From: Dyadobacter sandarakinus
GTDB lineage: Bacteria > Bacteroidota > Bacteroidia > Cytophagales > Spirosomataceae
Assembly (NCBI RefSeq): GCF_016894445.1
Contig: NZ_CP056775.1
Location: 620,001 to 684,000, forward strand
Direction: 5' to 3'
Length of the DNA stretch: 64,000 nucleotides
The translations under genes were made by a program, and so were the position numbers. Below the pieces are notes generated by a model that had not been told where the DNA came from, ran no database searches, and was given only the letters and a program-made list of their open reading frames with translations. Of the stretch, positions 8,689 to 63,958 are shown piece by piece. The stretch's first letter is position 1. Each line of letters starts with the position of its first letter.

Positions 8689-11600
8689 ATGAAAAAGGGA
8701 AATTCCTTTGTTCACAAGCTAACTCCTTTACTTCCGAAGGTATGGTCTGTGCTCATTCTGATCGGGTTGATTGTCAGCGTGCAGACCTCTGCGCTTGACT
8801 TTGACCGCGACGGCAGTTTCTTCCCGTGGCGCTCCGCGGGGAAAAGCAGCACAGCAAACAACGGACTGACGACCAGTCCAACGACGCAAAGCCGGGTAAC
8901 TAAGTTTACCGGGCAAAATCTGCTTAAGACCCTTGCCGATGCGGCAAGTGCGCTTTTCCAGTCACCTACCGTGGCGGAAGAGCTGGCTGACCAGACGGCC
9001 ACAACAGGAACGTCATTTTCTTACACCATTCCGCAGACTGCCTTTGCAGATGCCGATGGAGACGTGCTTACCCTGGCTGCTACCCTGGACAATGATGCTG
9101 CCCTCCCTGCCTGGCTCTTGTTTGATCCGGCAACCGGCGTGTTCAGCGGTACACCTGCTGATGCTGCAGCTTACAGCATCAAGGTAACTGCCAGCGATAA
9201 AGAATCGTCGGTGTCCAGCACATTCGACCTCGTGGTTTCGGCACCGGCTCCTGTGAACCATGCTCCCGTGGCTGGTACCATCGCCAATCAGAATGCGACT
9301 GCCGGAACAGCTTTTAATTTTGCACTACCTACCTCCACTTTTACAGACAGCGACGGGGATGCGCTGACTTACTCGGCCACACTGGCTGATGACAGTGCGC
9401 TTCCTGCCTGGCTTTCATTCAATGCTGCAACGCAAACGTTCAGCGGTACACCTTCCCTGGCGGCGACGATCAGCATCAAAGTATCCGCAACCGACAGCAA
9501 GGCTGCTGCGTCTGCTTCATTTGATCTTGTGATCGCACCGGCAGCACCTGTAAACCATGCTCCTGTGGCCGGCACGATTGCTGCGCAAAACGCGACTGCC
9601 GGAACACCATTTACCTTTGCATTACCTGCCTCCACTTTTACCGATAGCGACGGCGACGCGCTGACTTACTCAGCGACCCTTGCCGACGACAGTGCTTTGC
9701 CTGCATGGTTGAGCTTCAATGCGTCTACCCAAACATTCAGTGGTACGCCATCCGCAGCGGGATCCTACAACCTGAAAGTATCAGCCACTGACGGAAAAGC
9801 TGCTGCAAATGCCAGCTTCACCCTTGCCGTTGCTGCTGCTCCTGTTGTTACCTGCTCACCGCTGAGCACACTACCTTGCGACCAGCTTGCTGTTTCCCTG
9901 CCTTTCAATCTTACATTCAATGGTAACGAAGGCGGGCTTAGCGATAAAAATAATGTAGGTACCGGTTTCAAACTGGCAGATGCTTACTCTGGTACCCGTG
10001 CTTCTACTGACGGTGCTGCAAGCTCATCCATAATCGGCTACGAACCTTCCAAGCTGACTGTCGCCAATGATGTGCTGAGCATTGTAAGCAACAAGGGACT
10101 TGCGTTTACCAACAGCAACAACCAGATCAATGCCCTTGGCGTGAATTTCCCTGCAAGCGGCAAAGTGGTATTTGAAACAACCATCATTAAACCATTCAAC
10201 GGATCCAACTCCGAGCAGGGTGGTATCTGGGCTGGTTTGAACGACAAAACTTATGTGAAGCTGGGCATCACCGGCAATAAAGTGGAATTGCGCCGCGAGC
10301 TGAATGATGTTTCTTCCACCGTAACCGGAACTGCCAATACGGACCAGCGTATTACTGAAACCATCACAGGGCTGAGCACCCAGACTGTACGCCTTCGCAT
10401 GGTGCTGGATTTTAACAACAGTATCCTGGAAGGTTATTATTCGATTGATGGTGTGAACTATATCCTGATCGGTACCAACTATGCTACGCCGGTGCTCAGC
10501 ACTGCGGGTATGGGACTGACGGGAACCCTCAGAGCCGGTATTTTTGCAAGTTACCGCAGCGGTGCTAACGCCGTTACTTACAATTTTGACAACTTCTCCA
10601 TCCGCAACCACGAGTATCCTTTGGTAGCAGCACCTTACCGTATCAACGCAGGTGGTGTGACCAGAACGGTTGACGGACAGGTTTTCAATGCAGATAACAC
10701 TTATGCTACTGTTACTGGCACCACCAGCAACAGTAACTTTGCCATGTCAGGCGTGAGCGTTCCGGAGCTTTACTACGAACGTCGCATCGGCAGCAACATT
10801 TCCTATTACCTGCCTATCGCAAACGGTAAGTACACCGTGAAGCTGCACATGGTTGAAAACTTCCAGACGGCTCCCAACAAGCGTGTATTTGACGTTAAAG
10901 TTGAAAATGCAGCTGTTTTGCGCAATCTCGATCTTTATGTAGAAGGTGGTAACAAAACCAAGGTTGCTGTCATCAAATCAATTGATACGGAGGTAAAAGA
11001 CGGTGCGCTCAATATCGACTTCACCGCTACGGTTGACAATGCAGTAATCAATGCCATCGAAATCCTGCCTTATGTGGTTGTAAATGCGGCCCCCGTGTTT
11101 TCACAGCCAACTTATACTTTCAGCAAGAGTGAGCCCGGTGCGGCAAACTCAGAAGTAGCAGCAGTTTCAGCCACAGATGTTGCGGACCAGACTTTGACAT
11201 ACAGCATTACTGCCGGTAATGAGGCGGGCAAGTTTGCGATCAATGGCGCGTCAGGGATGATTACACTGACCGACACGGTTTCGTACTCCGCCAACAAACC
11301 TGCCTACGCGCTTACCGTCACTGCTACTGACAATGCAACACCTCCATTGTCCGCAACTGCTGCGGTGAATATCAGCATCACGCAGTTTCAGGCACCGAAC
11401 CAGGCGCCTGTTGCGGGTACCATCGGTGCACAGTCTGCCACTGCGGGTACCTTGTTCAGTTATACAATCCCGGCAGGTACATTTACCGATGCCGACAATG
11501 ATGCAATGACTTACTCGGCTACCCAGTCTGATGACAGCGCATTGCCCGCCTGGCTTTCCTTTAATCCGGCTACGCAGGTTTTCAGCGGAACACCGGCCAA

Positions 11601-14600
11601 TGCAGGCACTGTGAACCTGAAAGTCACTGCGACAGACGGTAAAGCTTCTGCCAGCACCACTTTTGCGGTGACCACCAATGCAGCGCCTATCGTGGCAGGA
11701 TGTCCTCCAACGAGCCTGCTTCCCTGCGAGCAGTTGAAGGTATCTGTGCCATTCAGCCTGACATTTAACGGAACAGAAGGCGGCCTGGTCGACAAAGCCA
11801 ATGTGGGTACAGGTTTCAGAATGGCTGACGCCTACTCAGGCACACGCCAGGCTACTGACGGAACGCCGAGCTCGGAAATTATCGGCTATGAGCCTTCCAA
11901 GCTGACGATCGCCAATGATCGCCTGAGCATTGTAACCAACAAGGGTATTGCCTTTTCGACCGCTTCACAGGTAAACAACAACCAGATCAATGCACTGGGA
12001 GTAGGTGTTACTGCAGCGGGCAGGATGGTCTTTGAAACAACGGTAATCAATCCTGTAAATGGAAACAACTCTGAACAGGGTGGTATCTGGGCCGGATTGA
12101 ACGACAAGACATTTGTAAAACTGGTCGTAACCGGCAACAGGCTGGAAATGCGCAGAGAGTTGAACGATGTTTCCATTGTTGATGCGACTACTGCCAATAC
12201 GGATCAGCGACTCTCTCCAGTTATTACAGGTCTGAATGCAATGACCGTAAGGCTGCGGATGGTGCTTGATTTTGCCAATAATACACTGGAAGGATCGTAC
12301 TCGACCGACGGTGTTAATTATGTAACGGTAGGTACCAACTACGTTACGCCTGTGATCAGCATCGCGAACATGGGAATGGGCGGACAAACCATTTATGCGG
12401 GTCTTTATGCCACGCACCGCAATGGTACCACGCCGGTTACTTTCACCTTTGACAACTTCTCGATCAGAAACCAGGATTACCCTGTTGTATCCGCACCATA
12501 CCGCATCAATGCCGGTGGTGTTGAGCGCACGGTAGCTGGTAATGTGTTTCATGAAGACAATGTTTACGCAGTAGTGGCAGGCTCTACTTCCAATGCTACG
12601 TACGCGTTGACAGGAGTTAGTAACCCTGAACTTTACTACGAGCGTCGTTTCGGAGCCAACCTTTCCTACAACCTGCCGATCGCAAACGGAAAATACACCG
12701 TGAAGCTGCATATGGTAGAGAACTTCCAGTCTGCCGCCAACAAGCGTGTGTTTGATGTAAAGGTTGAAAATGCGACTGTCCTGAAAAACCTTGACCTTTT
12801 TGTAGAAGGCGGTAATCTGAACAAGGTCGTGATCATCAAATCGATTGATACGGAAGTTACCGACGGTGCACTGAACATCGACTTCACGTCTTCGATTGAT
12901 AATGCCGTGATCAATGCAATCGAGATTCTGCCTGCTGCTATTCCAAACAAAGCACCCGTTTTTGCAAGTTCTGCTTTCAATTTCAGCAAAGCGGAAGACG
13001 CAGACCTTGGCGCGGAAATAGGAACGGTTACAGCAACAGACACCACCACCCAAACAGTATCTTACGCCATCACAGCGGGCAATGGTGCCGGCAAGTTCGT
13101 GATCAATGCGAGCACTGGTGTTATTACATTGGCAGGCGCGCTCGACTTCGCGACAACACCTTCGTATGCACTTACGGTAACTGCTACCGACAACGGTACG
13201 CCGGCACTTTCCTCTACTGCTACTGTAAATATTACGGTAATCGATGTGGAAGATGCCAACCATGCGCCGGTTGTAAATGCGCCGGTGAGCAACCAGACAC
13301 TGGTGGTAAACACAAACCTGTCTTTTACGCTTCCTGCAAATACATTTACTGATCCTGACAACAACCAGCTTTCACTGACAGCAACCCTGGTTGACGGCAG
13401 CGCACTTCCTGCATGGCTTAGCTTCAATGCTGCAACGCAGGTGTTCAGCGGTACACCGACGGTGATCGGTGCCTATACGGTGAAACTGACTGCAAGCGAC
13501 AGCAAGAAGGAAGTTTCGACCCAGTTTACCATTACGGTTACTGAGCCAAACCGTACCCCGGTAGTCATTTCGGCTCCCGAGGCACAGACCATTACGGCAG
13601 GTCAGGCATTCTCCATCATTACGGGTTCATTCTCTGATCCGGATGCAGGCGATGTGCTGACTTACTCGGCTACACTGGAAAACGGAGATGCTTTGCCGGC
13701 ATGGCTGCATTTCAGCAGTGCTTCGCAGAACTTCACCGGAACTGCACCAGCTGAAACAGGTACATTAAGAATTCTTCTGAGTGCAACCGACCACGCTCAG
13801 GCTTCTGCAAGTGCAGTGTTTGATCTGAAAATTGAAGCAGCACCGGCATCGAACGGCTGCTCACCGATCAGTACACTCCCTTGTGACCAGGTTAATGTGA
13901 CCCTGCCTTTTGCGATTACATTCGACGGCCAGGAAGGCGGCGTGCTCGACAAGAGCAATGTTGCGACGGGCTTTACAATGATCGATGCTTATACAGGTAC
14001 ACGTCTGACTGAGGACGGCACTGCCACATCTTCAGTAATTGGTTACGAGCCATCCAAGCTGACGATCGCTAACGGAAGGCTTACCATTGTTGCCAATAAG
14101 GGTATTGGTTTTGCCACGGGCAACAACCAGATCAACGCACTGGGTGTAGGTTTCCCTGCAAGTGGTAAACTGGTGATTGAGACTACGGTTATTAATCCAT
14201 TCAATGGTACCTCTTCGCAGCAGGGTGGTTTGTGGTTCGGTTTGAACGATAAAACTTTTATTAAACTGGCTGTGACCGGCAACAAGGTAGAAATGCGGAA
14301 GGAACTGAATGATGTTTCTTCTACCACCGCCACGACTGCTAATCCAGACCAACGCATTACGGATGTCATTTCAGGCCTGAATAACCAGACCGTTCGCCTC
14401 AGACTGGTAGCGGATCTGTCTAAAAACACGCTTGAAGGATTTTACTCAACAGACGGTGTTAATTACATCAACGTAGGTACGCGGTACACTTCCGCTTCCA
14501 ACCCTGCGGCCATGAACATCAGCAGCATGGCGCTGAATGGAAAAACAGTGTATGCCGGTGTGTACGCCAGTTACAGAAATGCAACCACACCTGCCTCATT

Positions 14601-17600
14601 TACTTTCGACAGCTTCTCGGTACAAGCTCAGGAACCAGCCAAAACCCTGACCTTCACCCCGAATGCACTCGACCTGACTGCAGTACAGGGCCAGGCTGTA
14701 ACCGCTACCAGCACCACGCTGACGGCCAGCACAGGAACTCCTGCGGTAACATTTACCAACAGTACAGCAAGCTGGCTGACATTGCCTGCTGCGGCAACCG
14801 GTACCGTAACATTCGGACCTTCCAATTTCAGCACCACCATGGCACCTGGTATCTACGAGGCGACCGTGACGGCTACTGCGGATGGTTACGAGCCTGCACA
14901 GCTGCTGATCAACCTGACGGTAACTTCATCCAGTGCACAGCCACAGGTGAAAGTTAACTTCCAGGATCCTAACACCGTACCTCCGACAGGATGGGTAAGG
15001 GATTACGGACAGGGTTTTGGACCAAGAACAGGTGCCAACCAGGGTTCCAACCTTGAATACGGCTGGCGCAAACCTGCTGAAAGAACCCCGCTCGACCTTT
15101 CGGTAGGCGGCACAATCCCGGGTAACGGACGCAAGCGCACCACGCCTGCGGATGTGACACTGGCAACGTTCATGCACATGCAGGCCAACACCATTTCCGG
15201 AACATTCAACGGTACCAAAGCCGAAGGTCTGTGGGAAATGAAAGTGCCGAATGGTATTTACGAAGTGACCGTTTCAGTAGGTGATTCGGATCCGGGTACG
15301 GTTTCTGAAAGCCACAGCATTAATGTGGAAGGTGTAAGTCTGATCAGCAAGTTTGTACCTTCCGGTACTGCTGGCACTGCAACCCGCTTCAAATCGGCCA
15401 AAGCAACTGCCCGCGTACTCGACGGCTACCTGACGATCGATGCCAGTGGTGGTACCAATACAAAAATCAACTCGGCGATCATTACTCCGATCGACCTTTC
15501 TCCTTACCTGGTATGGTCTGCGAGCGAGCATTCATTGGTCATCGAAACAGGTACAACAGATACAGATAAAACATTCTCGCTGGACATCAGCCACTCAACA
15601 TCCGACCCGGCACTGCCGATCGCGCTGAATGCTGTGTACAACGACAACTCTCCGGCCTGGCTTACTTTCAACGCTACGCACAACGGTGATGAGCCGAACG
15701 TAACGTTCAATTACTCGGCTGCGAGAAACCTGCCGGAAGGCCTTCATACTGCGGTAGTAACTGCTTCTGCAAACAACTACATCAGTGCAAGCGTGCTGAT
15801 TCGCGTGACGGTACTGGCACCGGGAGCTAACCAGCCTTATGTGGTTTCTTCCAGTCCTGCCAATGGTGCAACCAACGTAAGTGTTAACCTGGCGAGCGTA
15901 GCGGCCAACAACATCTTTGTTCCGGAAATCGCGGGCTTCAAGGGTGGTGTTGATAAAAATACCGTGAACGCCCAGACGGTGAAGCTTTACAAAATGTCCG
16001 GTGACGCGCTGATCCAGATTCCTGGTACGTTCCAGGGAACAGGTGGTGGCGATGCCATCAGTATCACGCCGGAATTTGCACTCGAAATCAATACGAAGTA
16101 CAAGTTCATGGTAACGAGTGGTGTAAAATCATTCAGTGGTGCTTCCTTCCTTCCTTACGAGGCGATATTCACAACAGGTTCCTACGTAGCGCCGCCGGCT
16201 AACCCGGTAGCAGCTGAGTTCGCACCGAAAGTGGTTATCCCGGGTACGGTTGGTAAAAAATACACCAGCGTACTGTTTGGTCCGGACGGCCGCTTCTATG
16301 CACTCCGCCTGGATGGTGTGATCGAACGTTTTACCGTAGATCATGAAACCGGTATGCTGTCCAACCAGACAGAGATCAAGTCGCTGACCAATAAATACGG
16401 AGCACGCTCCTCAGTAGGTCTGACGTTTGACCCGACATCTACTGCCGATAACCTGGTAGCCTGGATCTCGCATTGCAGCGCCGGTCTGACCAACGCTCCT
16501 GAATTTGACGGTAATATCTCACGCCTGTCGGGAGCTAACCTGGAAAACGAGCAGCTGGTGCTTACCAAACTGCCACGTTCCAAAGCGGATCACCTTGTGA
16601 ACAGCATTGCATTCGGTCCTGATGGCGCATTGTACTACAACCAGGGAAGCCTTAGCTCAATGGGTCTGTATGACGCAACCTGGCAGCGCGATGAAAGCTT
16701 GCTGGCAGCAACTGTAATGCGTCTCGACCTGAAAAAGCTGTCGGGGATGACATTGCCGCTTGATGTAAGAACAACGTCCAACCAGGCGCTGATCAATGCA
16801 GCTCCTGCTGACAACATCCGCCTTTCGGATGGTACTTATAACCCATATGCGACCAACTCTCCGCTGACGATCTATGCTTCCGGTGTACGTAATGCATTTG
16901 ATTTGCTGTGGCACTCCAACGGTCAGCTGTACGTTCCTGCCAACGGTTCTGCCGCAGGTGGTAACTCTCCTGAATCCGTAATCGGCACCCGCCGCCCGGA
17001 TGGTTCATTCTACAGTGGCTCTTATGTAAAACCAACCAATGGTGTGGTGGTACAAAATGACTGGTTGTTCCGTGTGAACCCGATTAAACCTGTGGGTTAC
17101 TATGGTCACCCGAACCCGCTTCGTGGTGAGTACGTATCCAACCGTGGTTATATCGACAACCCTAAGTATGATGCAGGCCAGGGCCCGGATGTAAACTACC
17201 GCGGCGCAGCCTACAACTTCGAGCTCAACAAATCACCAAACGGTGTGATTGAGTACAAAAGCAATGCATTCAACGGTGCGATGAAAGGCCGTATCCTGGT
17301 TTGCCGGTTCAGTGGTGGCAGTGACATTATCGTGTTGCAGCCAGGCTCTATGACGGCAGTGCCGGATGTAAACTCGCCTGAGTCCGACGACCGTATCTAT
17401 GATATCATCGGTGCACAGACAGGTTCAGGTACAAACGGGATTACAGGTCTTTCAGGCTTCACCAATCCGCTTGACCTTACCGAAGATGTACAAACAGGTA
17501 ACCTGTACGTCATCGAGTACAACTGGAATAACAACGCAGGTAAAACATCACAGATCGTGATGCTGAAAGCTACCTCCGTGTCCGCACCAAAAGGTATCGC

Positions 17601-20600
17601 CAGCGTTACACCTGCCGAAATCGTGGATAACGATGTAGTAGGAGGAGCAGCAGGTACAGCGCATACGGTTCGTATCGCTAATACCGGTAATGCCAACCTG
17701 ACAGTAACAAGCATTGAGCTGATCGGAGCCAACAAGGATCAGTTCCAGCTGCTGGGAGCTCCTGCTCCGACGGCTGCATCGCCGATGACCGTACTGAGAG
17801 GAAGCGCCTCTACTTTCAACATCGTATTCAATCCGACCAGCGCAGGTGTAAAAACAGCTACACTCCGCGTGACCAGCGTTGATAATGAAGTAAGTGAAAT
17901 CGTACTCCGCGGGTTAGGTACTGCCGGACTTTCCGGTACCAACGAGCCTTCACTGCAGGCTATTCTTGACCTTCACAGTGTGAATGTTAATGTAGGCGAC
18001 GATGACAAGAATACCAACATCATCCATAGCACCGACTTTAAGGCGCCACTGCTGGGCGAAGAGGTGTCTATCCAGTCGTTCAAACGCCTGACCGACGGCC
18101 CGGTGATCATTGAGCCGCTGTCTGTCTTCGGACCTCAGGATCCTGCGGGTATTGTAACGGGTCTTGGCTGGTACATCTCGGGACAAGCAAATGCTAAAAA
18201 CGAGCTGTTCACGGTATCCAACGACTTCTACCAGTCTGTTGATCCTCAGATCACGGGTACACCGGTGTTTGATCCGGGCATCGAAGCTTTCGGATTCTAC
18301 TCGCGCTGGCCATACTTCAACAACCGTCACCTGTACAGTGAAGATGCCCTGAACACATTTACGGGAGCTATTCCTCACCATGTAAGGATATACCCGCTCA
18401 AAGGTGACAATGGCAATGTGATCGAAGGATCGTACGTGGTTGCATTTGAAGAGCACGTTTCCGGCTTCGACTATCAGGATATTGCTTTCATCGTACGTAA
18501 CGTAAAATCGGCCACGGACGTAGTAGCAAAAACACTGACGGTATCATCGCCAACACTGACTTTTGCAAACGTAAAAGGTACGTCTACACCTGCTCAGAGC
18601 CTGACGATCGCTGCAAGCGCAGGAACACCTGCCATCACGGTAACCAAGTCGGCATCCAGCGACTGGCTCGTACTTCCTGCAGCACCTGCACTGGGTGTGA
18701 ATGCATTCGGAATCGACGCAACCGGCCTGGCTGCGGGATCATACAATGCGACGGTAACCATTGCAGCAGCAGGTTATACAAGCACAAACGTAGCAGTAAC
18801 ACTGAACGTGACTGCGCCGGCTTCTCAGGCGACCATCGCCGTGAGCAGCAGCGAGCTGATCTTTGATGCGCTTAAAAATACAACAGCAACCAGAAGGGTT
18901 ACTATTACCAATACCGGAACAGACGAACTCCGCATTGAATCCGTAACATTGGGCGGTACCAACCCCGATAAGTTCAGTGTACAGGAAATTGTGGTTGAAA
19001 ACGTACCTGCGGGCTCTTCGATAGCGCCTGAGCAAACCAAGACTTTCGACGTCAAGTTTATACCGGGTAACACAATCGCTACATACAATGCAGCATTGAC
19101 GATCAACAGCAATGCAGGCAACCTGCCAAGCATTAATGTAGGACTCTATGCCATGTCCCTGAACGGATACGAAGGCAGCAACGAGCCTCCTTTGCAGACG
19201 GTTGTCAATACGCTTGGTTATAAAATCAACGTAGGATGGACCACACTGGCAGACGGCGTACAGCCTGTCATGAAGGGTGAGGAAGTACTGATTCCGTTGT
19301 TTGAAAAAGCAGCCAGCGGTCCGGTAACCATCACGCCGGTGGCACGTTACTCGCCTAACCAGGAGCTTCCTTTCGGATTCTTTACTAAATCCGGCAACAC
19401 TCCGGTAAGAACGGGTGTAGGTACACTCTCGGGCGTCTTTGGGCAGCACAATACATTGTTCCCGCAGATCGTGGCCGGTACAGACCAGTTCAGCACAGAC
19501 CAGCCTTTCGGTATCTATGTAGTGGGTCTGGAAAATCGCCTGTCATTCTCGGAAGATGCATTGAATGCAGGCGGACCTGCACTGCACGCGGTACGTACTT
19601 ATCCGCTGAGAGACCGTCAGGGAGAGCTTGTGCCAAACAGCTACCTCGTATGTTTTGAGGATGCTTCCAACGGTGACTACCAGGATTATGTATTTGTTCT
19701 TAAAAATGTAATTCCGGCAGGAAGCCGCAAAGAGCTGGTATTTGACGCAAGTAACCTTGCATTCAACACGCCGCTCAACGGAACATCGGCTGCGAAGACC
19801 ATCACGCTCCAGGCCCGCAACGGAACACCTGCTGCCGTGAGGTTCTCGAAATCCAATACAAGCTGGCTGGTAGCACCAAGCCCGGCATTGGGCAGCCTGT
19901 CCTTCAATGTCAATACGGCCGGACTTACTGCCGGTGTATACTCGACAACGATCAATGCAGAAGCGGATGGTTTTGCCAGCGCCGCATTGACGATCAGTCT
20001 GCACGTTACCGACGTAAGTGCCAAAGCTGTAAAAGTTAACTACCAGCTTGCTACTACCGCAACACCGGCAGGGTACCTGGCAGATATCGGTCAGCTTTAC
20101 GACGACACCCGCGGCTACGGCTGGATCAACGCGACCACGAAAGCGCCGAAAGACAATTCAGCCAACATGCGTGAGCGGAGTTCCAATACAGTAGAAACAA
20201 GATTGCGTACACTCGCCCTGATGCAGGCCACCGGCAGCGGACAAACTCCGGGAGCCTGGGAAATGAAAGTGGATGCGGGCATGTACAACGTAACGGTTGG
20301 AGTAGGTGACGTAGGTTTCTACGACAGTAACCACCGCATCAACGTGGAAGGAACGACCGTGATCTCGAACTTCATCCCGAATGCCCAGACGCCTAACCAG
20401 ATTGTGACGGCAACGGTTGAAGTAACTGACGGAAAGCTGACCATTGATGCAACCGGAGGTACCAATACGAAAATCAACTTTGTGATTGTTGACCCGGCTA
20501 CTGCCGAGGGCGACTTCACTCCGCCGGTGGCTGCGCTCAGCCTGAAAGGTACCCTGCAGTCTGCGGGCGTATACACCAACCAGGTGATGGTGACGGTAAA

Positions 20601-23600
20601 TGCTTCTGATGCGGGCGGATCGGGTCTTGCCAATGTACTTTACAGTATCAACAACGAGGCCTTCCGCGACTACTATGGTCCTGTGATCATCAATGCTGCC
20701 GGTACTTACAGCTTCCGTGCAAAAGCAATTGACGGAAACAAAAATGAGACGACCAGCTCCGCATTGTCATTCAGCGTGGTGCAGACGCAGCCAAGCAATG
20801 CCAATATGGTGGTTGAAAACCTTGACAAGTTCCCGGCCAACGATCAGCTGACATTCTCGCTCATCCAGGAGCCATGGAGAAGAACGAACGACGACGGAAC
20901 ATTTACGCCGTACAACCGTAACCATGACGTGGTGAAAGCCAGGATCAGCAACAAGGGCACTGCCGCTCTGACCATCAGCAGCCTGGCACTTTCCAACCCT
21001 GCTGCCTGGAAGATCGCAACGATCAACAATGTGGCTTACGATCCCGCAACTGCTGCTGCCATCACCGTTAATCCGGGCACATCCATTGAAATGGCAGTTC
21101 AGTTTGTAGCACAGTATCCTACCGGAAGAGTGCGGATCCTGAACGACACCTTGAAGATCATGTCTAACGATGACGTGGCACCAAGAAAAAATATCGTCCT
21201 GCGCGGATTGTGGCAGGCTGCCGGCGAGGGTAACAGCGAGCCGAGAGCTTCCGAGATCATCAGTGCATTCGGTATGAAGTCTAATGTTGGGTTCCAGCAT
21301 GACGACGGTACCAACACCGGAAACAGCCTGGTTCTGAACACAGACGAGATTATGTCGGCCTACTTTGCCCGTGCTGATGCAGCCAAGCCTGTTTCAGTAG
21401 TACAAATGGGCGCTTACCACGGCTGCTGTGCATCTGTTGAGAACGTGGAGTACTTTGTAAAAGGTACCAACACTTACTCGACCCTCTTCACGCACCATGG
21501 TCTCGACGGACAATCGCTGCTTCCTTTGAAGGCCGGTAACTCGAATGCCATTGCAGAAGGATCGTTCAGCCCGACCGGCTTGTTCGGCTTCCGCGTATCG
21601 ATCTCGAACTCTGACCGTACCAAAAACCTGGAAGGCAAAATCGGCCTCCGGTTCTGGAAAGCAGTTGACAACAATGGAAACGTAATTCCGAATGCTTATA
21701 TCATCGGTCATGACTACATCGGCAAGCCCGGAATCACCAATTACGATTACCAGGATAACGTGTACTATGTGACCAACATCAAACCTGAAACGGGTACTGC
21801 CAATTATTCTGACCTGGCATCTACTCCTTCGGCAGTTGACTTCGGATCACAGGTGGTAGGTCTTACCAATACGCAGAACATCGACCTGAAAAACCTGGGT
21901 CTTACCTATGCAAATGGTACTACCGATCCTTCGGTGACCATCAAGAGTGTTGAAATCGCAGGACCAAACCTGAATGAGTTTGCCGTCGGAACCGCAACAT
22001 CGTCAAGCCTGGCTCCACAGGAGTCGACCACGCTGACTGTGACCTTCCGTCCGAGCACGCCGGGTATCAAAAATGCGGTACTGCTTGTTAATTATACCAG
22101 CAGTCTTTCACCGGTGCGTATTCCGCTCTATGGTATTGCCAATGACAACTGTAACCTCATCGGTGTGCTGAAACGCATCAAAGGTGGTTCCGATGCTGAG
22201 GTGAATATCAATGGTAAGGTTTGGGAAGCAGACAGGAACTATCGCCTCGGATCTATCCAGCTGGATAAGCCTGCCGCTACACCAATCGCTGCTACGGATG
22301 ATGACGTGCTTTATCAAACATACCTGTCCGCAGCTGCCGACCTGGCTGAGACGCGCTATCAGATTCCGGTGGCTAACGGTACTTATAAAGTCAGGATGCA
22401 CTTTGTGGAGAACTTCTTTACCGCTGTGGGATCACGCGTGTTCAGCATCAGTCTTGAAAACGTACTGCGCCAGTCCAACTTCGATATTTTCAGAGAAGTA
22501 GGCTACAAGACAGCGCTTGTGAAAGACTTTGAAGTAAGTGTTACCGATGGCAGACTGGACGTTAAATTCAATCCGTCTGTGAACCGGGTAGCCCTCGCAG
22601 GTCTTGAAATCTTCAACTCGAATGCGAATCCGAATGCAGTGGTATTGACGCAGGAAGCGGTTGTAGGTGCAGAATGTGCCAAGTCTAACGGATCTATCAC
22701 CTTCGGGGTTGCCAACTCCAATGTGTCAAGCTTCCTCTATAAAATGGGAGAGAGCGGATCATACCAGACTTCGCCTGTGTTCAGCAACCTGGCCTCCGGA
22801 GATTATACTTTCTATGTGAAAGAGAACTTCAATGGTGGCTGTGAAACTTCCAAAGTGTTCACAATCCCAGAGCGCAACGGAATCACATTTACTGTAACTG
22901 CTCCTGAAATGTCGTGCAGCGCTCCATCCGGAACAGCCACGATCAGCAACCTTGCAGGCGGAAGCGGAGGAAACTATACGGTATCGTGGGGTACTACTCC
23001 GGTACAGACAGGACTTACTGCGACCAACCTGCAGCCAGGCAATTACTTCGTCACTGTAACAGACGGATCAGGTTGTACCAAGGTTCAGCAGGTAACGGTT
23101 GCCCGCAAGGCCAACTGCCCTGTAACTGCAATCAGGATCAATTCAGGTGGTGACGCGTACCTCGCTTCCGGCAACAGACAGTTTGCAAGCGACGCATACT
23201 TCGGTGGCACTAACGGTACATCATCCCTGCCAAGCGGTGATATCCTGAATACGACTGACGATGCGATTTATATGACTGAGCGTTCTTCTGCATCATTCAA
23301 CTACAGCATCCCGGTAACAAACGGAAACTGGAACGTAATCCTGCACTTTGCAGAGATCTGGTTCGGAGCTCCGGGTCGTGGTGCGGGTGGCAGCGGAAAA
23401 CGTGCATTCAACGTGGATGTGGAAGGCAGCCGAAAACTGACCAACTATGACATCTTTGCCAAAGCAGGCGGTGCACTGAGAGCTATTCAGGAAACCATCC
23501 CTGTGACCATTACAGACGGTATTGTCAATATCAACTTTACCGCAGGAACTGCCAACTTGCCGAAGATCTCAGCGATCGAGCTGATCATGACCTCACCGGC

Positions 23601-41247: not shown

Positions 41248-41975
41248 ATATTGAAATAAAATGCTCCTGAAATAGCTTAATATTAATCATGTAATTATTT
41301 CTTTGGCGCGCATATAAATGTTTCTGTAAATGCATTGCACTAACTTAAATATGTGCTCTATTTTGGTATTTAAGTATAAAAAAATAGGAATAAAAGTGCC
41401 TGCGTTTAGGACGAATCGTTATGGTATTTCAGTATTACTTAACTGCCTGAATTACGTGCCGGATATCTGAATGCAAGAACAAATATTGACACTACCATTT
41501 AATAAAAATGCAGAAGTTTTGACATCAGGCTTCATTTTGCTTAGGAAAAATATTTGTCCGTTTCATACCCCAATTTGCCCGGCTCACGAAATTTAACCTA
41601 AGTACCCCGCTTGTTTTTAGCATTTTTACAGCATCACACTAACCTGCTCCGCATCTTAAAGTTGAGGCAATGTTTTAAATCCGATTCCTGATCGATTTGC
41701 ATTGTATTTTTTAACCTAATTAAATCTTTAATTCAGAAACGACAATTAAGATCTGATTAGCTTGAATTTTCTGTCGACTTATCCCGGGTTGATCTCGTTT
41801 TTGACAAAATGTCATTGAAGCTCCGGCAGACTTTTCATTTTACACTACCCACCTGATATTAATCGCTTTTTTCTCAAACCAAGACACACTATTGCAGGTG
41901 CTGGCCTTCAAACCGGCATGTATGCGCCTATGAATGGTAAACCCTAAACTTTTTAATAAGAAACTCAACAACGTT
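41248..41975 (+). other. AT-rich non-coding leader upstream of the 1,737-aa modular protein
   Basis: No gene is seen in this stretch of about 730 bases. It contains the shared motif at 41558-41581, then TTTTTACAGC (near 41623) and TTAAGATCTGATTAG (near 41746). Both resemble segments in the same order in the leader of the giant gene. No clear TAnnTTTG promoter was found. An alternative ATG at 41934 would lengthen the downstream protein by 14 residues. Confidence 0.6.
41558..41581 (+). promoter_or_regulatory. Shared upstream motif, copy 2
   Basis: CCGTTTC, six bases, then CAATTTGCCCG, 395 bases before the chosen start of the modular protein. Spacing and both halves are identical to the copy before the giant gene (7901-7924). 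Confidence 0.45.
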
Positions 41976-47189: not shown

Positions 47190-47331
47190 CCATTGTAATT
47201 GACAGTAATTTATGCTTCATATTCATCTAAAAACCTCATTATCATAAGTATATCTATGGTCGGGAGTGCTTAGGTTACCACCTGCATTCCCGATTTGCTT
47301 TTTATTCTGCATAACTCAAACGAACCAGAAC

Positions 47332-50300
47332 ATGAATGAAAGTTTACGTGTCCAACCCAGCCCCCCGCTAAGAAAAATCCGGAAAGCCGCCCTGGCAGGC
47401 TCCCTGGCGATGATGATGTGTCTCGGCCATGAGGCCGGGGCTGGTGCTGCTGCCCCGCTGGCCGGTCCGTGCGCTCCTGTAAGTACGCTGGATTGCAATG
47501 CACTTACCGTAGGCATGCCTTATAATCTTTCATTTACCTCGGGTGTAACCAATAGCATTGTTGACAAAAATGGCACAGGTACCGGCTTTACCGCAGTAAA
47601 TACGTACTCGGGTACCAGGCTGTCTGCCGACGGATCTGTTTCCAATGCATCGGTTCCGGGATATACACCATCCAAAATCACCGTCACCGGCGGCCGCCTG
47701 CAGGTAGTTGCCAGCAAAGGAATTGACTTTCAGGCCAACAACAATCAGATCAATACCCTGAGTGTGCGGGTGCTGGCTACACAAAAATTTCAGATCGAGG
47801 TCAAACTTTTGAATCCTGTAAATGGAGCCGACTCGCAGCAAGGCGGTATATGGTACGGTCTGAATGACAAAACATTCGTGAAGCTGGGCGTGACTGGCAA
47901 CAGGGTTGAACTTCGCAAAGAGTTTAATGACGTGTCGAGCACCACTTCGGGCACCGGCAACCCTGATCAGCGCCGGACAGGTGTGATCAGTAACCTGAAC
48001 ACCCAGACCGTGTGGCTGCGCCTCGTGATCGATGCAGGTACGAACACCGCAGAAGGATTTTACTCCACAAATGGAACCACCTATACAAGTACAGGCGCAG
48101 GCTACGGCACTTCCGGGGTAAGCATTTCGGGAACAGGGCTTACCGCCGGCGAGCAGTATGCGGGTATTTTTTCAACTTACCGCAATGCATCCGCAGCGGT
48201 TACCTATACTTATGACGATTTCGCGGTAACATCCCTTGCCAGCCAGGCGAGTGCGAGTATCAACTTTCGCCCGTCGGGCAGTGCGGCACCTTCCGGCTAT
48301 ACGGCGGATAACGGTTTGCCATTTGATGCAGGCCGCAAGTTCGGCTGGCTTACCGCCACTACTTCGCAGCCTTCGGATTACAGCGCCAATACCCGCCTGC
48401 GGACCGGAACCGGCGATGCACGCCAGCTGTCGCTGATTCAGATGCAATCAAATGCCAACAACACAACACCCGGCAAGTGGGAGTATGTGGTGCCCAATGG
48501 AAGTTACAGAGTATCCGTCAGTGCCGGCGACAATAATTATTTTGACAGCAACCACCAGGTCAATGTGGAAGGCCTGCCTGCCATCACGGACTTTGCCGGT
48601 TCGTCGGCGACCAAGTTCAGGGTAGGCACCGCGCTGGTGCAGGTTTCGGATGGAAGGCTTACCATTGATGCAACCGGCGGTACCAACACCAAAATGAACT
48701 ACGTGACATTTGCGCCGGCTACTGCTGTTACCGACAACACTGCACCTACGGCCAGTGCGCGTTTTACCGGCAGTCTGATGTCGGCAGGTGTGTACAACGG
48801 TGCAGTAAGGGTGATCATGACTGCGGCTGACAACGGAGGCTCGGGACTGAAGACTTTTCAGTATGCATTGAACGGAGGTTCTTTTACCAACTACACCGCA
48901 CCGTTCAGCGTAAGTACGCCAGGCAATTACAGCTACGTGATCCGGGTTGTGGACGGAAATAACAATACAACTACGACAAGTGCATTCAGTTTCTCGATTT
49001 TCGCTCCTGCTTCACCGGGTGCATACATGGTATTGCGCAACCTGGATGGCTTCCCGGCAAACGATCAGCTGACTTTTTCACGCATTCAGATCCCATGGAG
49101 ACGTACATCGCCTGAGGTAACTCCCTACAACCGGAATCATGATGTTGTAAAACTGAGAATCCAGAGCAAGGGATCGGGCAGTCTAACGGTCAGCAATCTG
49201 GTTTTGTCGAACCCATCAGCCTGGAAGGTCATTGCAATCAACTCCGACAGTTCGGCGGCAACACCGGTTTCAATCAATCCGCGCGGATCGGTGGATGTGG
49301 CGATCAGGTTCACGGCACTCGATGCTTCCACACGGGTGAAGGTTTTTCATGATACGCTGACGATCAACAGCAATGATGGAAATACACCGGCCCGGAAAGT
49401 TGTGCTGCACGGTTTGTACCAGCGCATGGGTGAAGGTAAAAATGAACCCCATGCACAGGAAATCATCAATGCATTCGGTTTTACTTCCAAAACCGGTTAC
49501 GGATACGAAGACAATGGAAACAATGGCAACTCGGTAATGCCCAGCTCCAACGAAGTGCCCATTTCTTATTTTGTCAGAGCGGATGCGACAAAGCCGGTGA
49601 CAGTACGCCAGCTGGCTGCTTACCACGGGTGCTGTGCTGCTACGGAAACGTTCCGTTATTTTGCCAAAGGATCAGGTACGCTGAACGCAGTGTACGCCCA
49701 TGATCCGCTGGACGGACAATCGCTAAGTCCAAGGCTCCGCAATTCGACCCAGGCTGCGATAGGAACGTTCAGCCCTGCGGGCAGTTTCGGTATCCGTCTG
49801 GGAACCACTTCCTCTTCGGACCGTACGCAGAATGCCGGTGGTATCATCGGGATCCGTTTCCTGCGTGCGATTGATATGAACGGCAATTTTGTTCCGAATA
49901 CCTACTTTGTGAACCACGATTATATCGACAACTCATTCACGAATTATGATTATCAGGACAACATTTACATCATTGAAAATGTAAAGCCGGAAACAGGTAC
50001 CGTGAATTACTCCGACCTGGCCAGTACGACCTCCTCAGCCATCAACTTCAATCCCACGCTCACAGGCGCCAATTCGTCCTCGACCGTGACGTTGAAAAAC
50101 ATGGGTACAACCTATTCCAACGGCAGCTCCGACCCAAGTATTACCATCAAGAGCGTCAGGATTGTGGGGCCTAATGCCAGTGAATTTTCCTACACGGCAC
50201 TGAGCACAACGTCCCTGGCCGTACAGGCTACTACGCCTTTAACAGTCCGGTTTGCACCGTCAAGTGCAGGTATCAAAAATGCGGCAATCCTGGTCAACTA

Positions 50301-51153
50301 CAATAATTCAAAGTCGCCGCTGCGCATTCCGCTCTATGGAATTGCAAACAGCAATGCGTCTACCGTGAGCGTTGTACGACGGATCAAATCCGGTTCGAAC
50401 GCAGCATTGACCGTGGGTGGTGATACGTATGAAGCCGATAACACCTATCGCACAGGCTCCATACAACTGGATACGCAAAGCCCGCCGAATGGCGTGGCCG
50501 GAACCGATATCGATGCATTGTACCAGAGCTATCTTTCCGCCAGTACGGACTTGGCCCAGACCGGCTACGACATTCCGGTGAGCAATGGTAACTACCTGGT
50601 GAGAATGCACTTTATCGAAAACTTCTTTACAGAAGACGGTGCGCGCGTTTTTGGTACCACCATTGAAAACCAGCCGGTACTTTCCAACTTCGACATTTTT
50701 GCAGAGGCAGGATACCGGACGGCCCTTGTGAAGGATTTTGCCGCCACAGTTTCGGATGGTGTGCTTACAATCCGCTACAATCCGTCTGTTAACCGGGTCG
50801 CGATTGCTGCCATTGAAATATTCAGGCTGGTAAACAGCGGTGCGAGGATCGCAGCTGAGCCGGAAAATGAGATCGTGGGCGAGTCGGGAGCCATGGAAAT
50901 GGCCGTATACCCGAACCCCGCTGCGGGTGGAGAGGTTTACCTTGACCTGAGAAACTTTGGCAAGAATGAGCCCGTGGATGTATCGGTGGTTAACCTGTTT
51001 GGTACTGCGGTAAAACGTCAGCAGGTGGCAACGGATGCAGAAGGCAGGGCCCGCGCAATTTTGTATCAGAATGAAAAACCTGCAAAGGGAATTTACCTGA
51101 TCCGTGCGCAGTCATCCTCCGGAGCACTTACTACGAAGCTGCTTGTGGAGTAA
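47332..51153 (+). CDS. Modular T9SS-secreted lectin/malectin protein (1,273 aa)
   Basis: ATG at 47332 (MNESLRVQPSPPLRKIRKAA) starts a signal peptide ending near GAGA; a longer frame from 47266 is less likely. Order by approximate residues: ConA-like lectin with a CX7C opening (47-302), malectin-like (306-463), OmpL47-like Ig (468-560), a DUF4114-like module with the AYHGCCAATE motif and YDYQDNIYIIENV end (562-887), an ASH domain (890-1008), malectin (1009-1167) and a T9SS type A sorting domain (1192-1273, VYPNPAAGGE). From residue 306 to 1167 the order equals residues 3779-4646 of the giant protein. It has no propeller. A strong terminator follows. Confidence 0.9.
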   Translation: MNESLRVQPSPPLRKIRKAALAGSLAMMMCLGHEAGAGAAAPLAGPCAPVSTLDCNALTVGMPYNLSFTSGVTNSIVDKNGTGTGFTAVNTYSGTRLSADGSVSNASVPGYTPSKITVTGGRLQVVASKGIDFQANNNQINTLSVRVLATQKFQIEVKLLNPVNGADSQQGGIWYGLNDKTFVKLGVTGNRVELRKEFNDVSSTTSGTGNPDQRRTGVISNLNTQTVWLRLVIDAGTNTAEGFYSTNGTTYTSTGAGYGTSGVSISGTGLTAGEQYAGIFSTYRNASAAVTYTYDDFAVTSLASQASASINFRPSGSAAPSGYTADNGLPFDAGRKFGWLTATTSQPSDYSANTRLRTGTGDARQLSLIQMQSNANNTTPGKWEYVVPNGSYRVSVSAGDNNYFDSNHQVNVEGLPAITDFAGSSATKFRVGTALVQVSDGRLTIDATGGTNTKMNYVTFAPATAVTDNTAPTASARFTGSLMSAGVYNGAVRVIMTAADNGGSGLKTFQYALNGGSFTNYTAPFSVSTPGNYSYVIRVVDGNNNTTTTSAFSFSIFAPASPGAYMVLRNLDGFPANDQLTFSRIQIPWRRTSPEVTPYNRNHDVVKLRIQSKGSGSLTVSNLVLSNPSAWKVIAINSDSSAATPVSINPRGSVDVAIRFTALDASTRVKVFHDTLTINSNDGNTPARKVVLHGLYQRMGEGKNEPHAQEIINAFGFTSKTGYGYEDNGNNGNSVMPSSNEVPISYFVRADATKPVTVRQLAAYHGCCAATETFRYFAKGSGTLNAVYAHDPLDGQSLSPRLRNSTQAAIGTFSPAGSFGIRLGTTSSSDRTQNAGGIIGIRFLRAIDMNGNFVPNTYFVNHDYIDNSFTNYDYQDNIYIIENVKPETGTVNYSDLASTTSSAINFNPTLTGANSSSTVTLKNMGTTYSNGSSDPSITIKSVRIVGPNASEFSYTALSTTSLAVQATTPLTVRFAPSSAGIKNAAILVNYNNSKSPLRIPLYGIANSNASTVSVVRRIKSGSNAALTVGGDTYEADNTYRTGSIQLDTQSPPNGVAGTDIDALYQSYLSASTDLAQTGYDIPVSNGNYLVRMHFIENFFTEDGARVFGTTIENQPVLSNFDIFAEAGYRTALVKDFAATVSDGVLTIRYNPSVNRVAIAAIEIFRLVNSGARIAAEPENEIVGESGAMEMAVYPNPAAGGEVYLDLRNFGKNEPVDVSVVNLFGTAVKRQQVATDAEGRARAILYQNEKPAKGIYLIRAQSSSGALTTKLLVE

Positions 51154-56133: not shown

Positions 56134-56146
56134 CTGTTCCCGGCCG

Positions 56147-60524: not shown

Positions 60525-60548
60525 CGGTTTGACAAATCAATTTGCCCG
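60525..60548 (+). promoter_or_regulatory. Shared upstream motif, copy 3
   Basis: CGGTTTG, six bases, then CAATTTGCCCG, 156 bases before the 60704 gene. The right half is identical to the other two copies; the left half differs at two of seven bases. In this copy CAAATCAATTTG also forms a small palindrome. Confidence 0.4.
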
Positions 60549-60703
60549 TCTTAATTCAATACTGTTTGATATGGAATTTGGCAGTCTGTTTTTGCCGACA
60601 GATTTATTGTTGAACACCGTGGCAGCAGAACTCAGAATGGCGGTCAAGGCATGTTCCAGGTTTGGACATGAGTGATCATTGTTCGTTCCCAAAATGAAGA
60701 ATC

Positions 60704-63700
60704 TTGAAAAAATCTACGTTTTTAACACTATATCTGAAAGAGGTAATTTGTTATAAAATATGCATACTATTAACGTTCCTATGTGTATTTTCTAATCGGG
60801 CGAATGCGTTATCCGGTTATTTTTCGAATAAATTGCCTATACACACCGCCAGCATGGATACCTTGTCCGACCGTACGCGCATCGGACAAAGTGACTATGG
60901 ACAAACCGCTGCCAGTGCCAAATTACTTCAGGCCAAAGCACGGGACATCGATACCGGCATCAAACTGCCCGAATCTGAAAAGATACGTACTGCCGCTCCC
61001 AAGCGTCCGGTTAAAATCAATTTTTCCGTTCAGCGTATCAGCTTTACCGTTTTAAAAGGTCAGCTCATTCAACCCCGGGTGGTCAAGATTCTGTCGGAAC
61101 TCACTGGGCCCGTTTTCAGGCTCGTCAAGACAGAGGCCAAATGGCTGCACCTGCCGGACACGACCGACGGGCTGCTTACATTCGGTCCGCGCTCCATCAA
61201 TTCGAACATCAAGCCGGGGCAGTACCATGCGATGGTAACCTGCACCGCTGACGGGCATATTCCCGCTTCACTGCTGATCGACCTGCAGGTGATCGATGCC
61301 ATGCATCCGCAAACCCTGAACATCGACTTCCAGGATCCGAAAAGTGAGCCGCCGCTGGGGTACCTGAAAGATTACGGGCAGCCTTTTGGCTGGCGTTCCG
61401 GTAAAGATCAGGGCACAGGGCTGGTCTACGGCTGGAAGGATCGTGCTACCGGCAAGGCGCTCAATCTTACCCCCAATGGTCGGAATCGCAATACACCCGA
61501 CGACGTGTTGCTTGCGACACTCGTGCACATGCAGGCCAACCATATTGCCAATCCCAGGTGGAAGGGTGTCAAACGGGAAGGATACTGGGAGATCAAAGTT
61601 CCCAATGGTACCTATGACGTAACCGTAGCAGTAGGAGACGGCCGCGTAACATCCAAGATCGAGAAACACTCCATTTTTGTAGAGGGAAAACTGGCGATCA
61701 ACAAGTTTGTCCCGAATGGTAAAAAGGGTACGATCAGCCGGTTCAAATCGGCTACGGTCCGGGTTGACGTAAAAGATGAGCTGCTTACACTCAGCGCAGA
61801 TGGTGGTACCAGTACCAAAATCAACTCCGTGTCAATCAAGCCGGTGACGGTGAGCCCTTATGTATTTACGAGCACCAAAAACGTCAATCTGACCTTGGTG
61901 AAAGGCTCGAAAGGGGAGAAGGCGTTTTCCATGGTCATGGGCAATTCCAATAATGCATCCGGTCGTTACGAGCTAGGGATCAGCTATGGGCGCGGCGCTA
62001 AAAACTGGCTGCATTTTGATAAACATATTGCTGGAAGGCAGCCTGCCGGCAGGTTTGACTATGCTGCGGCGGAGCACTTGCCGGTCGGCATTTACCATGC
62101 AACATTGAGGGTGAGCTCGGGAGAATTGACCAGTGCATTGTTTTCCGTGCAGATTAACGTAGTCGATGGTAACCGGCCGTATGTGGTTTCGTCCACACCG
62201 CTGAACGGCACAGCACGCATCAGCCTTAAGTCAGCCAGTATTGCGGCGAACAACCTGCATATTCCTGCCAAAAAAGGTATAAAAGGGGGTGTAAACAATA
62301 CAACCATCACGAATCGTACGGTAATGCTCCTGAAACTGGTGGATTCAAAGTTTTATCCGATCCGCGGCACCGTGCAGGGAACCGGCGGAGGCGACGTGAT
62401 CAGCTTTACACCTACGCGGGAGCTTGAACCGAATACGATTTATAAATTCGTGATTACCAGGGGTGTCAAATCGTATGCAGGAGCTCCTTTTGCACCTTAC
62501 GAGGCTACTTTTACCACCGACGAGGCCATCATTGATTCCAGCAGCATGCTGCGTGCGGAATTTACACGAGTACCTATCCCAGGGACACGTAATAAAAAAT
62601 ACACTTCGCTTACAATCGGGCCCGACGGGAAGTTCTATGCCCTGCGGCTCGACGGGCTGATCGACCAGTTTACGTTTGATCATAAAACCGGCTTGCTGAC
62701 CGGTCTGAGGGTAATCAAAACCCTGGTAAGCAGGTACGGACTGCGCTCCGCAATCGGGATGGCCTTTGATCCGGAATCTACTCCTGAAAACCTGATCCTA
62801 TGGGTTTCCCACTCCTCGGCCGGGATGTCCATGGCACCCGCATTTGACGGCAATATTTCCAGGCTGGAAGGTTCGAGTCTGCAGCGGGAGCAGCTGATGA
62901 TTACAAATCTGCCACGCTCCAAACGCGATCACATGATCAACGGACTGGCATTCGGGCCGGACGGTGCATTGTACATGAGCCAGGGCAGCAATAGTTCGGC
63001 CGGTCTGTACGATGCCGACTGGCAGCGGCACGAGAGTCTGCTGGCAGGTACGGTTTTACGGCTTGACAAAGCGAAGCTCAGGTCATTCAACCTTCCGCTC
63101 GATGTAAAGACAACATCAAACCAGCGGGCCGTAAACCAGGCTCCGAAGGTAGCGCCTACCATGTCCGATGGTACTTACAACCCCTATGGAAGCAAGGCGC
63201 CAGTCACCATTTTTGCCTCGGGCGTGCGGAATGCATACGACTTGCTGTGGCACTCCAATGGGCAGCTGTACCTCCCCACAAACGGTTCGGGCGGTGGCGG
63301 TAATTCCCCGGCATCCGTGGCAGGCACCCGCAGGCCTGATGGTACATTTTACACCGGGCCGCGCATTCCTGTGACCACCAACATACAGGTGCAGCACGAC
63401 TGGCTTTTCCGGATCAATCCGAACCTGCCTGTGGGCTACTTTGGCCACCCGAATCCGATGCGCGGAGAGTATGTCCTCAATCGTGGGCCGGAGGACAATT
63501 CGCTGTACCTGCCGTCCGTCAAAGCAGATAAAAATTACCGCACAGGCTATGATCTTGGATTGAACAAGTCGCCCAACGGTGTGATTGAATATAAAAGCAA
63601 TGCATTCCGGGGAGCGTTGCAGGGCAAGATTCTGGTATGCCGGTTCTCGGGCGGAGGCGACATTATTGTGCTGGAACCGGGTTCAATCAAGAACACGCAC

Positions 63701-63958
63701 CAGAAAGGCGATGACGGTATTTACGATATTATAAAAGTGCATTCGGGCTCGGGCAATAATGGTCTTGTCGGCATGTCGGGCTTTGGGAATCCATTGGATA
63801 TTGTTGAAGATACGCTCAATGGTAACCTCTATGTGATCGAACATAACTGGAACGACAGTCCTAATCTCTCTGCCCAGATCACGCTGCTCCGCGTAAAAGA
63901 AGGTCCTGAACCAGCGCCGCTTGCCAAAGAGGCTGCAGGCAAAAACAAGAAGAAATAA
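60704..63958 (+). CDS. Modular propeller protein without T9SS sorting domain (1,084 aa)
   Basis: The frame has no upstream ATG (in-frame TGA at 60695), so TTG at 60704 is the best start. It gives a plausible signal peptide (KKSTFLTLYLKEVICYKICI to NALSG). Order by approximate residues: BACON (100-199), malectin-like with LNIDFQDP start (200-382), BACON-like (383-490), SbsA-type Ig (490-608) and glucose/sorbosone dehydrogenase-like propeller (617-1066, H743 and R842 conserved). It then ends in a Lys-rich tail, GKNKKK. This order is identical to residues 1985-2961 of the giant protein. The missing sorting domain suggests it stays in the periplasm or uses another route. Confidence 0.88.
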   Translation: MKKSTFLTLYLKEVICYKICILLTFLCVFSNRANALSGYFSNKLPIHTASMDTLSDRTRIGQSDYGQTAASAKLLQAKARDIDTGIKLPESEKIRTAAPKRPVKINFSVQRISFTVLKGQLIQPRVVKILSELTGPVFRLVKTEAKWLHLPDTTDGLLTFGPRSINSNIKPGQYHAMVTCTADGHIPASLLIDLQVIDAMHPQTLNIDFQDPKSEPPLGYLKDYGQPFGWRSGKDQGTGLVYGWKDRATGKALNLTPNGRNRNTPDDVLLATLVHMQANHIANPRWKGVKREGYWEIKVPNGTYDVTVAVGDGRVTSKIEKHSIFVEGKLAINKFVPNGKKGTISRFKSATVRVDVKDELLTLSADGGTSTKINSVSIKPVTVSPYVFTSTKNVNLTLVKGSKGEKAFSMVMGNSNNASGRYELGISYGRGAKNWLHFDKHIAGRQPAGRFDYAAAEHLPVGIYHATLRVSSGELTSALFSVQINVVDGNRPYVVSSTPLNGTARISLKSASIAANNLHIPAKKGIKGGVNNTTITNRTVMLLKLVDSKFYPIRGTVQGTGGGDVISFTPTRELEPNTIYKFVITRGVKSYAGAPFAPYEATFTTDEAIIDSSSMLRAEFTRVPIPGTRNKKYTSLTIGPDGKFYALRLDGLIDQFTFDHKTGLLTGLRVIKTLVSRYGLRSAIGMAFDPESTPENLILWVSHSSAGMSMAPAFDGNISRLEGSSLQREQLMITNLPRSKRDHMINGLAFGPDGALYMSQGSNSSAGLYDADWQRHESLLAGTVLRLDKAKLRSFNLPLDVKTTSNQRAVNQAPKVAPTMSDGTYNPYGSKAPVTIFASGVRNAYDLLWHSNGQLYLPTNGSGGGGNSPASVAGTRRPDGTFYTGPRIPVTTNIQVQHDWLFRINPNLPVGYFGHPNPMRGEYVLNRGPEDNSLYLPSVKADKNYRTGYDLGLNKSPNGVIEYKSNAFRGALQGKILVCRFSGGGDIIVLEPGSIKNTHQKGDDGIYDIIKVHSGSGNNGLVGMSGFGNPLDIVEDTLNGNLYVIEHNWNDSPNLSAQITLLRVKEGPEPAPLAKEAAGKNKKK

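Follow-up and report, generated by a model that had tools for sequence, protein, structure and literature searches.

A family of modular, probably exported proteins in Dyadobacter sandarakinus and other Bacteroidota, and its possible role in the exopolysaccharide matrix

The closest described counterparts of the proteins considered here are Bap1 and RbmC of Vibrio cholerae, modular secreted adhesins whose 8-bladed beta-propeller binds the Vibrio exopolysaccharide (EPS) (PMC10102183). In a 64,000-nucleotide stretch of Dyadobacter sandarakinus (bases 620001-684000 of a 6.07-Mb genome in one contig; hereafter the window), four long proteins, a giant (G) and the shorter A, B and C, are members of a modular and probably exported protein family of Bacteroidota that is based on two units found together, the P-core and the B-body. 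No description of the family was met in titles and abstract openings among the top matches in the open-access literature, a coverage outside which most subscription papers fall. The preferred reading, which is given a probability of slightly under one half, is that these proteins serve in the extracellular matrix formed by the cell's own EPS and tie that EPS to the cell.

Architecture and distribution of the family

That four long modular proteins lie here on one strand, and that the giant repeats the block order of the other three, had been noticed from the sequence alone. Open reading frame (ORF) calls bear out the former, with all four genes on the forward strand (Table 1), and BLASTP among the four proteins confirms the latter at E-values from 0 to 2e-174: residues 1974-3141 of G align with 574-1695 of A at 48% identity, 1981-2972 of G with 100-1075 of C at 51%, and 3712-4642 of G with 258-1186 of B at 49.5%, while A and C are 57% identical and A (66-584) and B (69-582) share about 520 residues at 52.5%. 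The starts first given for A (41976) and B (47332) are later ATG codons than those listed here.

The P-core comprises a BACON-like block, a malectin-like block (ML2), a second BACON-like block (BAC2), Big_5/SbsA-Ig and a propeller of the GSDH fold (PROP). G begins with He_PIG, cadherin, lectin and malectin repeats, continues through the P-core, DUX-1, DUX-2 and a B-body containing DUX-3, and ends in a region given the label SprB-like in this work, malectin repeats, CBM96 and the sorting tail of the type IX secretion system (T9SS). The order in B is LEC, ML2, OmpL47, ASH, DUX, ASH, malectin (MAL) and T9SS tail. LEC, a lectin-like block absent from the sequence-only reading, occurs three times in G (residues 386-644, 998-1265 and 1717-1991), with malectin, cadherin and He_PIG blocks between the copies, and once each in A and B.

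Domains were scored with Pfam and NCBIfam profiles against curated cut-offs. The names malectin (G, B), Big_5/SbsA-Ig (G, A, C) and OmpL47 (G, A, B), all proposed earlier, exceed them, as do He_PIG, cadherin and CBM96 in G; ASH (choice-of-anchor D) does so in G and falls below the cut-offs in B. BACON has no Pfam match at E<=0.01 and is kept as a label only. The block first called DUF4114-like was renamed DUX because the profile in question, PF13448, has no match in the D. sandarakinus genome at E<=10. The fixed orders ML2-BAC2-SbsA-PROP and ASH-DUX-ASH-MAL are not spanned by any Pfam or NCBIfam model among the matches, and DUX is matched by none of these. The propeller proposed for G, A and C was confirmed as a fold by a structure search with a PROP model. 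The T9SS tail (TIGR04183, cut-off 23 bits) scores 42 bits in G, 30.8 in B and, just below the cut-off, 22.9 in A, and the T9SS component SprA is recognized in the genome (SprA_N, 488 bits).

Block profiles derived from the window proteins show three recurrent classes in relatives (genomes and loci are denoted below by G and L numbers). P-types end in ML2-BAC2-SbsA-PROP, often with ASH and a tail; B-types carry ASH-DUX-ASH-MAL, often with LEC-ML2-OmpL47 ahead and a tail behind; and giants hold a P-core, DUX copies, a B-body and further repeats in one chain. Giants with the backbone of G occur in D. bucti (two), G012 (two) and Rhodocytophaga aerolata, in G076 with a variant order, and also in D. 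sediminis (cut by contig ends) and D. flavalbus (two overlapping frames), these last two species having additional shorter forms with one DUX; more distant giants are present in G265, G269 and G391. The overlap of the two frames in the D. flavalbus-like giant is at L126:2738-2741 (G001). On a contig labelled Acidimicrobiia (Actinomycetota; L058) there is a giant-type fragment at 31% identity, possibly reflecting misbinning or transfer.

The proposal that such genes form a unit of their own gains from a search of other genomes, in which PROP and DUX blocks recur together as one modular family. Among 392 Bacteroidota genomes, with at most four first-look candidates scored in each, PROP (query A2, E<=1e-40) and the B-body (E<=1e-15) match the identical six. 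In 79 relatives, too, a single set of six genomes accounts for both the propeller matches and the B-body matches above 60 bits; the count excludes weaker partial matches, to ASH segments or to GSDH-like proteins of other kinds, and a 215-bit match to ML2 alone in G052. G265, G269 and G391 carry PROP and DUX blocks in one giant, and G301 and G436 in separate genes. Within the genus few genomes have the family (5 of the 47 examined), and the layout of four genes within 55 kb was not seen in the other genomes examined.

Relatives of the propeller, LEC, DUX/B-body and malectin blocks also lie elsewhere in the D. sandarakinus genome. In the genome as a whole, propeller relatives above 600 bits stand at five places, three of them inside the window, LEC at eight and B-body matches above 500 bits at four. 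The relatives outside the window include a second P-B pair (2278 and 1796 residues) at 58.7-73.2 kb, and the propeller closest to that of C is the copy at 63.6 kb (69%) rather than that of A or G. A 1638-residue paralogue (L033:4163-9079) has the order PROP-ASH-MAL-ASH with a very diverged propeller (29% identity), and the malectin matches of the genome, 49 in 6 Mb, occupy, outside the giant, open frames of 473-1,797 residues.

Table 1. Features of the window and of related loci (window coordinates unless a locus is named)
Feature	Position	Strand	Basis
Stem with a T run after it, in the susD-G interval	7558..7592	+	read by eye
G, giant protein, 5747 aa	8689..25932	+	ORF, Pfam, block profiles
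G: three LEC (lectin-like) blocks	9844-10620, 11680-12483, 13837-14625 (span 9844..14625)	+	
G: P-core, common to A and C	14629..17571	+	BLASTP, trees
G: DUX-1 and DUX-2, with ASH and BACON-like blocks in between	17896..19824	+	
G: B-body (ML2, OmpL47, ASH, DUX-3, ASH, malectin), common to B	20023..22626	+	
G: three malectin domains with He_PIG spacers	23122..25086	+	
G: CBM96/DNRLRE domain and T9SS type A sorting tail	25117..25920	+	
DUF6797/DUF7133/cytochrome c gene upstream of A	38371-41154		
A, P-type, 1751 aa: LEC, ML2, OmpL47, P-core (43689-46586), T9SS-type tail just below cut-off	41934..47189	+	
B, B-type, 1295 aa from GTG, directly downstream of A	47266..51153	+	
C, short P'-type, 1084 aa, TTG start: P-core only (61001-63928)	60704..63958	+	
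DUF7133 proteins near family genes	L032:16296-17999; L129:6441-9572; L139:3206-5455; L152:41-2911		
LytTR regulators	L030:10163-11020; L044:14886-15764; L132:14588-15409; L158:4264-5040		

Linkage to exopolysaccharide genes and the proposed role

The neighbourhood of many of the smaller family genes suggests a tie to EPS export. In Mucilaginibacter, a genus named for slime and with an EPS-producing species known, every locus found with a P-core (9/9) has a family gene immediately ahead of wza and wzc and in their orientation; this gene is a B-type in seven (L048, L049/L202, L050, L053, L054/L203, L055, L057/L204) and a P' in two (L045, L051). The order P'-B-wza-wzc is found in G301 and G436, the other P gene of G301 being located elsewhere, and in the downstream flanks of L164 and L165 Wzx and initial-transferase-like genes come next. 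In D. sandarakinus the second pair, arranged as P-LytTR-B, adjoins an EPS cluster that extends to wza near 108.7 kb and encodes an initial transferase, pyruvyl transferases, Wzi, two lyases, UGDs, glycosyltransferases, Wzx, Wzc, Wza and CpsB, with Wzy not recognized within it; D. bucti and G012 have the same layout, and in G265 the giant is divergent from wza-wzc. LytTR response regulators stand between P and B in the Dyadobacter group and again inside the adjoining EPS cluster, which suggests shared control.

Some EPS link was found in 15 of the 23 genomes assessed. G012 was counted as linked on a wza match in a 144-residue frame and Wzc in two overlapping frames, and G269 was not counted because the Pfam Wza domain is absent, despite a Wzc-like gene near a PROP gene of 581 residues; the MAG56 contigs (L041, L043, L052) and L058 were excluded as too short. 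The stronger proposition that the pair is always EPS-linked was dropped in view of the remaining 8/23.

A second kind of evidence comes from the LEC blocks of 10 genome pairs with LEC in both partners (those of G301 on different contigs). Of the 24 permutations for the four Dyadobacter-group pairs, and of the 720 for the six Mucilaginibacter-type pairs, the true P-B pairing ranks first in summed LEC identity, which hints at block exchange between partners. The pairwise signal is modest: the LEC of the own P beats every foreign P for the 58.7-kb D. sandarakinus pair, G012, MucNORP, both MucLimno copies and G301, and loses to a foreign P for the window, D. bucti, MucJRF, MucGoss and MucPsy.

A glycan-related surface role, as envisaged in the sequence-only reading, is likely. 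If the proteins indeed serve the EPS matrix, P and B would be exported by Sec, the tailed ones also by T9SS, and their lectin-like, malectin-like and propeller blocks would bind the EPS of the producing cell, anchor it at the cell surface and cross-link it. The sorting tails, the SprA of the genome and the propeller fold, which is that of sGDH, AA12 and HHIP, the last of these solved with heparin, speak for such a role. In the giant, an old form of the system, the two cores would share one chain that internal repeats have lengthened.

Several observations weigh against a matrix role. Eight genomes show no EPS link [G001, G006, G076 (short contigs), G079, G080, G090, G269 and G391], Rhodocytophaga, Pontibacter and Paraflavisolibacter among them. 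In the window itself, A-B and C stand away from the wza locus, the LEC blocks of A and B are unmatched (50% identity, vs 65% to a foreign P), and C, in common with other tailless P' proteins, has no T9SS tail at E<=0.01 (TIGR04183). The three Dyadobacter-group EPS cases probably represent one inherited event, and distance alone is weak evidence in that group, with a chance of 0.07-0.25 per genome when locus and wza counts are entered by hand and uniform placement is assumed. Co-occurrence of the cores arises partly by construction, because in three of the six genomes both blocks belong to a single giant. Finally, SusC- or SusD-like genes lie within about 8 kb of family genes, often solitary members or giants, and DUF7133 genes, some with cytochrome c, lie near four family loci (Table 1); these neighbours of solitary members keep nutrient and redox readings in play.

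According to the nutrient reading, which is unlikely, the proteins capture polysaccharides, from plants or other sources, on the cell surface and so serve hydrolases and uptake by SusCD. A SusC-SusD pair is located upstream of the window giant and a GH127 gene within the window; a 72% GH127 is found beside one giant of G012, and SusCD genes flank a giant of D. bucti. SusC-like genes also stand 2-8 kb from seven solitary members, either P (L046, L047, L129, L061) or B (L135, L150, L151), accompanied by SusD at L046, L047, L129, L150 and L151, and the 49 malectin matches fit glycan capture as well. However, no SusCD genes were seen beside P-B pairs, whose common neighbours are EPS genes, and SusCD genes are common in such genomes. 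The terminator-like stem with its T run between susD and G, moreover, indicates that the giant is probably not co-transcribed with susCD. A conserved giant neighbourhood was not found, the flanks read around other giants differing except for GH127 at one and SusCD at one.

Rather improbable is the proposal that PROP is an active sugar dehydrogenase, of the pyrroloquinoline quinone type or similar, with EPS or some other extracellular sugar as its substrate and a cytochrome as electron acceptor. The PROP model (mean predicted local distance difference test score, pLDDT, 82) has its nearest folds in soluble glucose dehydrogenase (sGDH) and AA12, with HHIP also present, among the best 50 of 1085 Foldseek matches; for sGDH (1c9u_A) the E-value is 4e-13 and the template-modelling (TM) score 0.54. 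The His of a "DH" motif and an RN motif, both of which align with the enzyme relatives, are invariant in 33 PROP sequences. TIGR02604 (PVC-type heme-binding) matches the propeller weakly, and the DUF7133/cytochrome c genes near family loci and upstream of A encode possible electron-transfer partners; the one at L129 lies 55 bp from a family gene and, like that of L139, comes with cytochrome c. Yet HHIP, a non-enzyme of the same fold, one structure of which among the matches was solved with heparin, keeps that His too, and the residue after "QG" is Ser in PROP but Asp or Glu in the aligned chains. Both Pfam GSDH and TIGR02604 score below their cut-offs. PROP shares fold and motifs with sGDH, aldose sugar dehydrogenase (ASD), AA12 and HHIP but differs from them in sequence: identity is 15-18% to sGDH/ASD and 11-13% to AA12/pyranose dehydrogenase among the matches listed, and a sequence search of the PDB with the P-core gave no match at E<=0.01, only weak, partial ones. 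For DUX (pLDDT 85), the fold search in the PDB gave no confident match, the best being 7f91, a lectin, at E=0.028.

Least probable of the functional alternatives is that the giant is an SprB-like adhesin or gliding track protein that serves movement or surface attachment. The size of G, its T9SS tail, its cadherin/He_PIG repeats and the SprA of its genome recall the giant, repeat-rich SprB-type gliding adhesins, as does the region labelled SprB-like, a label that comes from this work and not from a profile match. SprB, however, has a type B sorting tail and an SprF partner, whereas the tail of G is type A and no PorP/SprF was recognized among the Pfam-scanned neighbours, small ORFs lying outside the scan.

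Other neighbours of family genes were recorded alongside these. Just upstream of C are two GT4 genes and an LPG-synthase-like gene. At 52810-55048 of the window two overlapping ORFs together make up the molybdopterin subunit of a xanthine-dehydrogenase-like operon; the break between them falls inside MoCoBD_1 and possibly reflects a frameshift, a sequencing error or decay. In D. flavalbus-type genomes, thermolysin-type metallopeptidases of about 1,400 residues with T9SS tails occur near family genes (L037:8594-12808; L150:10920-15119).

Origin of the giant

Trees were built for PROP (51 rows, blocks longer than 350 residues), DUX (56 rows, blocks longer than 150 residues) and LEC (26 hand-chosen proteins). 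Duplicate or cut loci (L034, L036-L038, L040, L042, L044, L046, L047, L059, L060) were left out; the PROP tree has no row for the split G001 giant, and neither it nor the DUX tree includes the distant giants of G265, G269 and G391. In the PROP tree, nine giant-type rows from the Dyadobacter group and Rhodocytophaga form one clade (support 100/99), A and C sit among the P-types of Dyadobacter and Mucilaginibacter (29 rows, 100/100), and further giant-type rows, from MAG56 and, on a very long branch, G076, lie outside the nine-row clade. A constraint that groups PROP of G with that of A and that of C costs 240.8 log units [approximately unbiased (AU) test, p=1.5e-10]; the constraint joining A with C is borderline (AU p=0.043). 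In the DUX tree, the three DUX positions of giants make three separate cross-genus groups (89/70, 99/98 and 95/90), and forcing DUX-3 of G with the block of B costs 109.8 units (AU p=2.7e-4).

The sequence-only reading had made its idea of growth by fusion and shuffling depend on closer kinship of blocks within the window, and the kinship runs the other way: PROP of G is nearer to that of a Rhodocytophaga giant, from another family, than to A or C, and DUX-3 of G is nearer to other giants than to B. The block trees imply that the giant backbone is older than these species, and the giant is an old gene of its own that was not pieced together recently from its neighbours; a P gene and a B gene beside it may have fused long ago, or a giant may have undergone fission. 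Recent assembly of the giant in this genome from the window genes A, B and C, to which the common block order might point, is ruled out by the trees and AU tests and contradicted by the same-backbone giants of other genomes.

The giant does grow by internal duplication, and its repeats are still changing. In the malectin region of G, a stretch of 300 nt recurs 753 bp away at 97% identity, and in the LEC tree one G012 giant has LEC copies that hardly differ among themselves.

Comparison with described systems

The genes that directly precede an export gene in every Mucilaginibacter locus examined are named targets for a direct test of the matrix role, and the same cores joined in giants illustrate one way in which giant surface proteins arise and gain length. 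Protein partners of Mucilaginibacter slime were not described in open-access titles and abstract openings among the top matches.

As in other T9SS type A cargo of Bacteroidota, a sorting tail and malectin, choice-of-anchor D and OmpL47 domains are present here; the family differs from such cargo in its fixed ML2-BAC2-SbsA-PROP and ASH-DUX-ASH-MAL orders, for which there is no covering model.

In Vibrio, RbmB is reportedly a lyase acting on the EPS, and its gene lies within the EPS locus. Neither Bap1 nor RbmC appeared among the best 50 of the 1085 Foldseek matches of PROP, no direct comparison having been made, and no homology is claimed. The Vibrio propeller is 8-bladed and is accompanied by a beta-prism and other accessory domains, whereas the propeller here has a GSDH-like fold and most of the family a T9SS tail. 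The likeness is that both are modular adhesin-type proteins combining a propeller with further lectin-type domains, and by analogy the family may likewise bind EPS. It is tentatively proposed, with less confidence than the matrix role as such, that P and B make up a two-protein EPS-matrix module, T9SS-exported and wza-wzc-adjacent, its LEC blocks matched by within-genome exchange and its parts present in some lineages as single giants of about 4,000-6,500 residues, and that this module would be an independent counterpart of the Vibrio polysaccharide (VPS)-Bap1/RbmC system.

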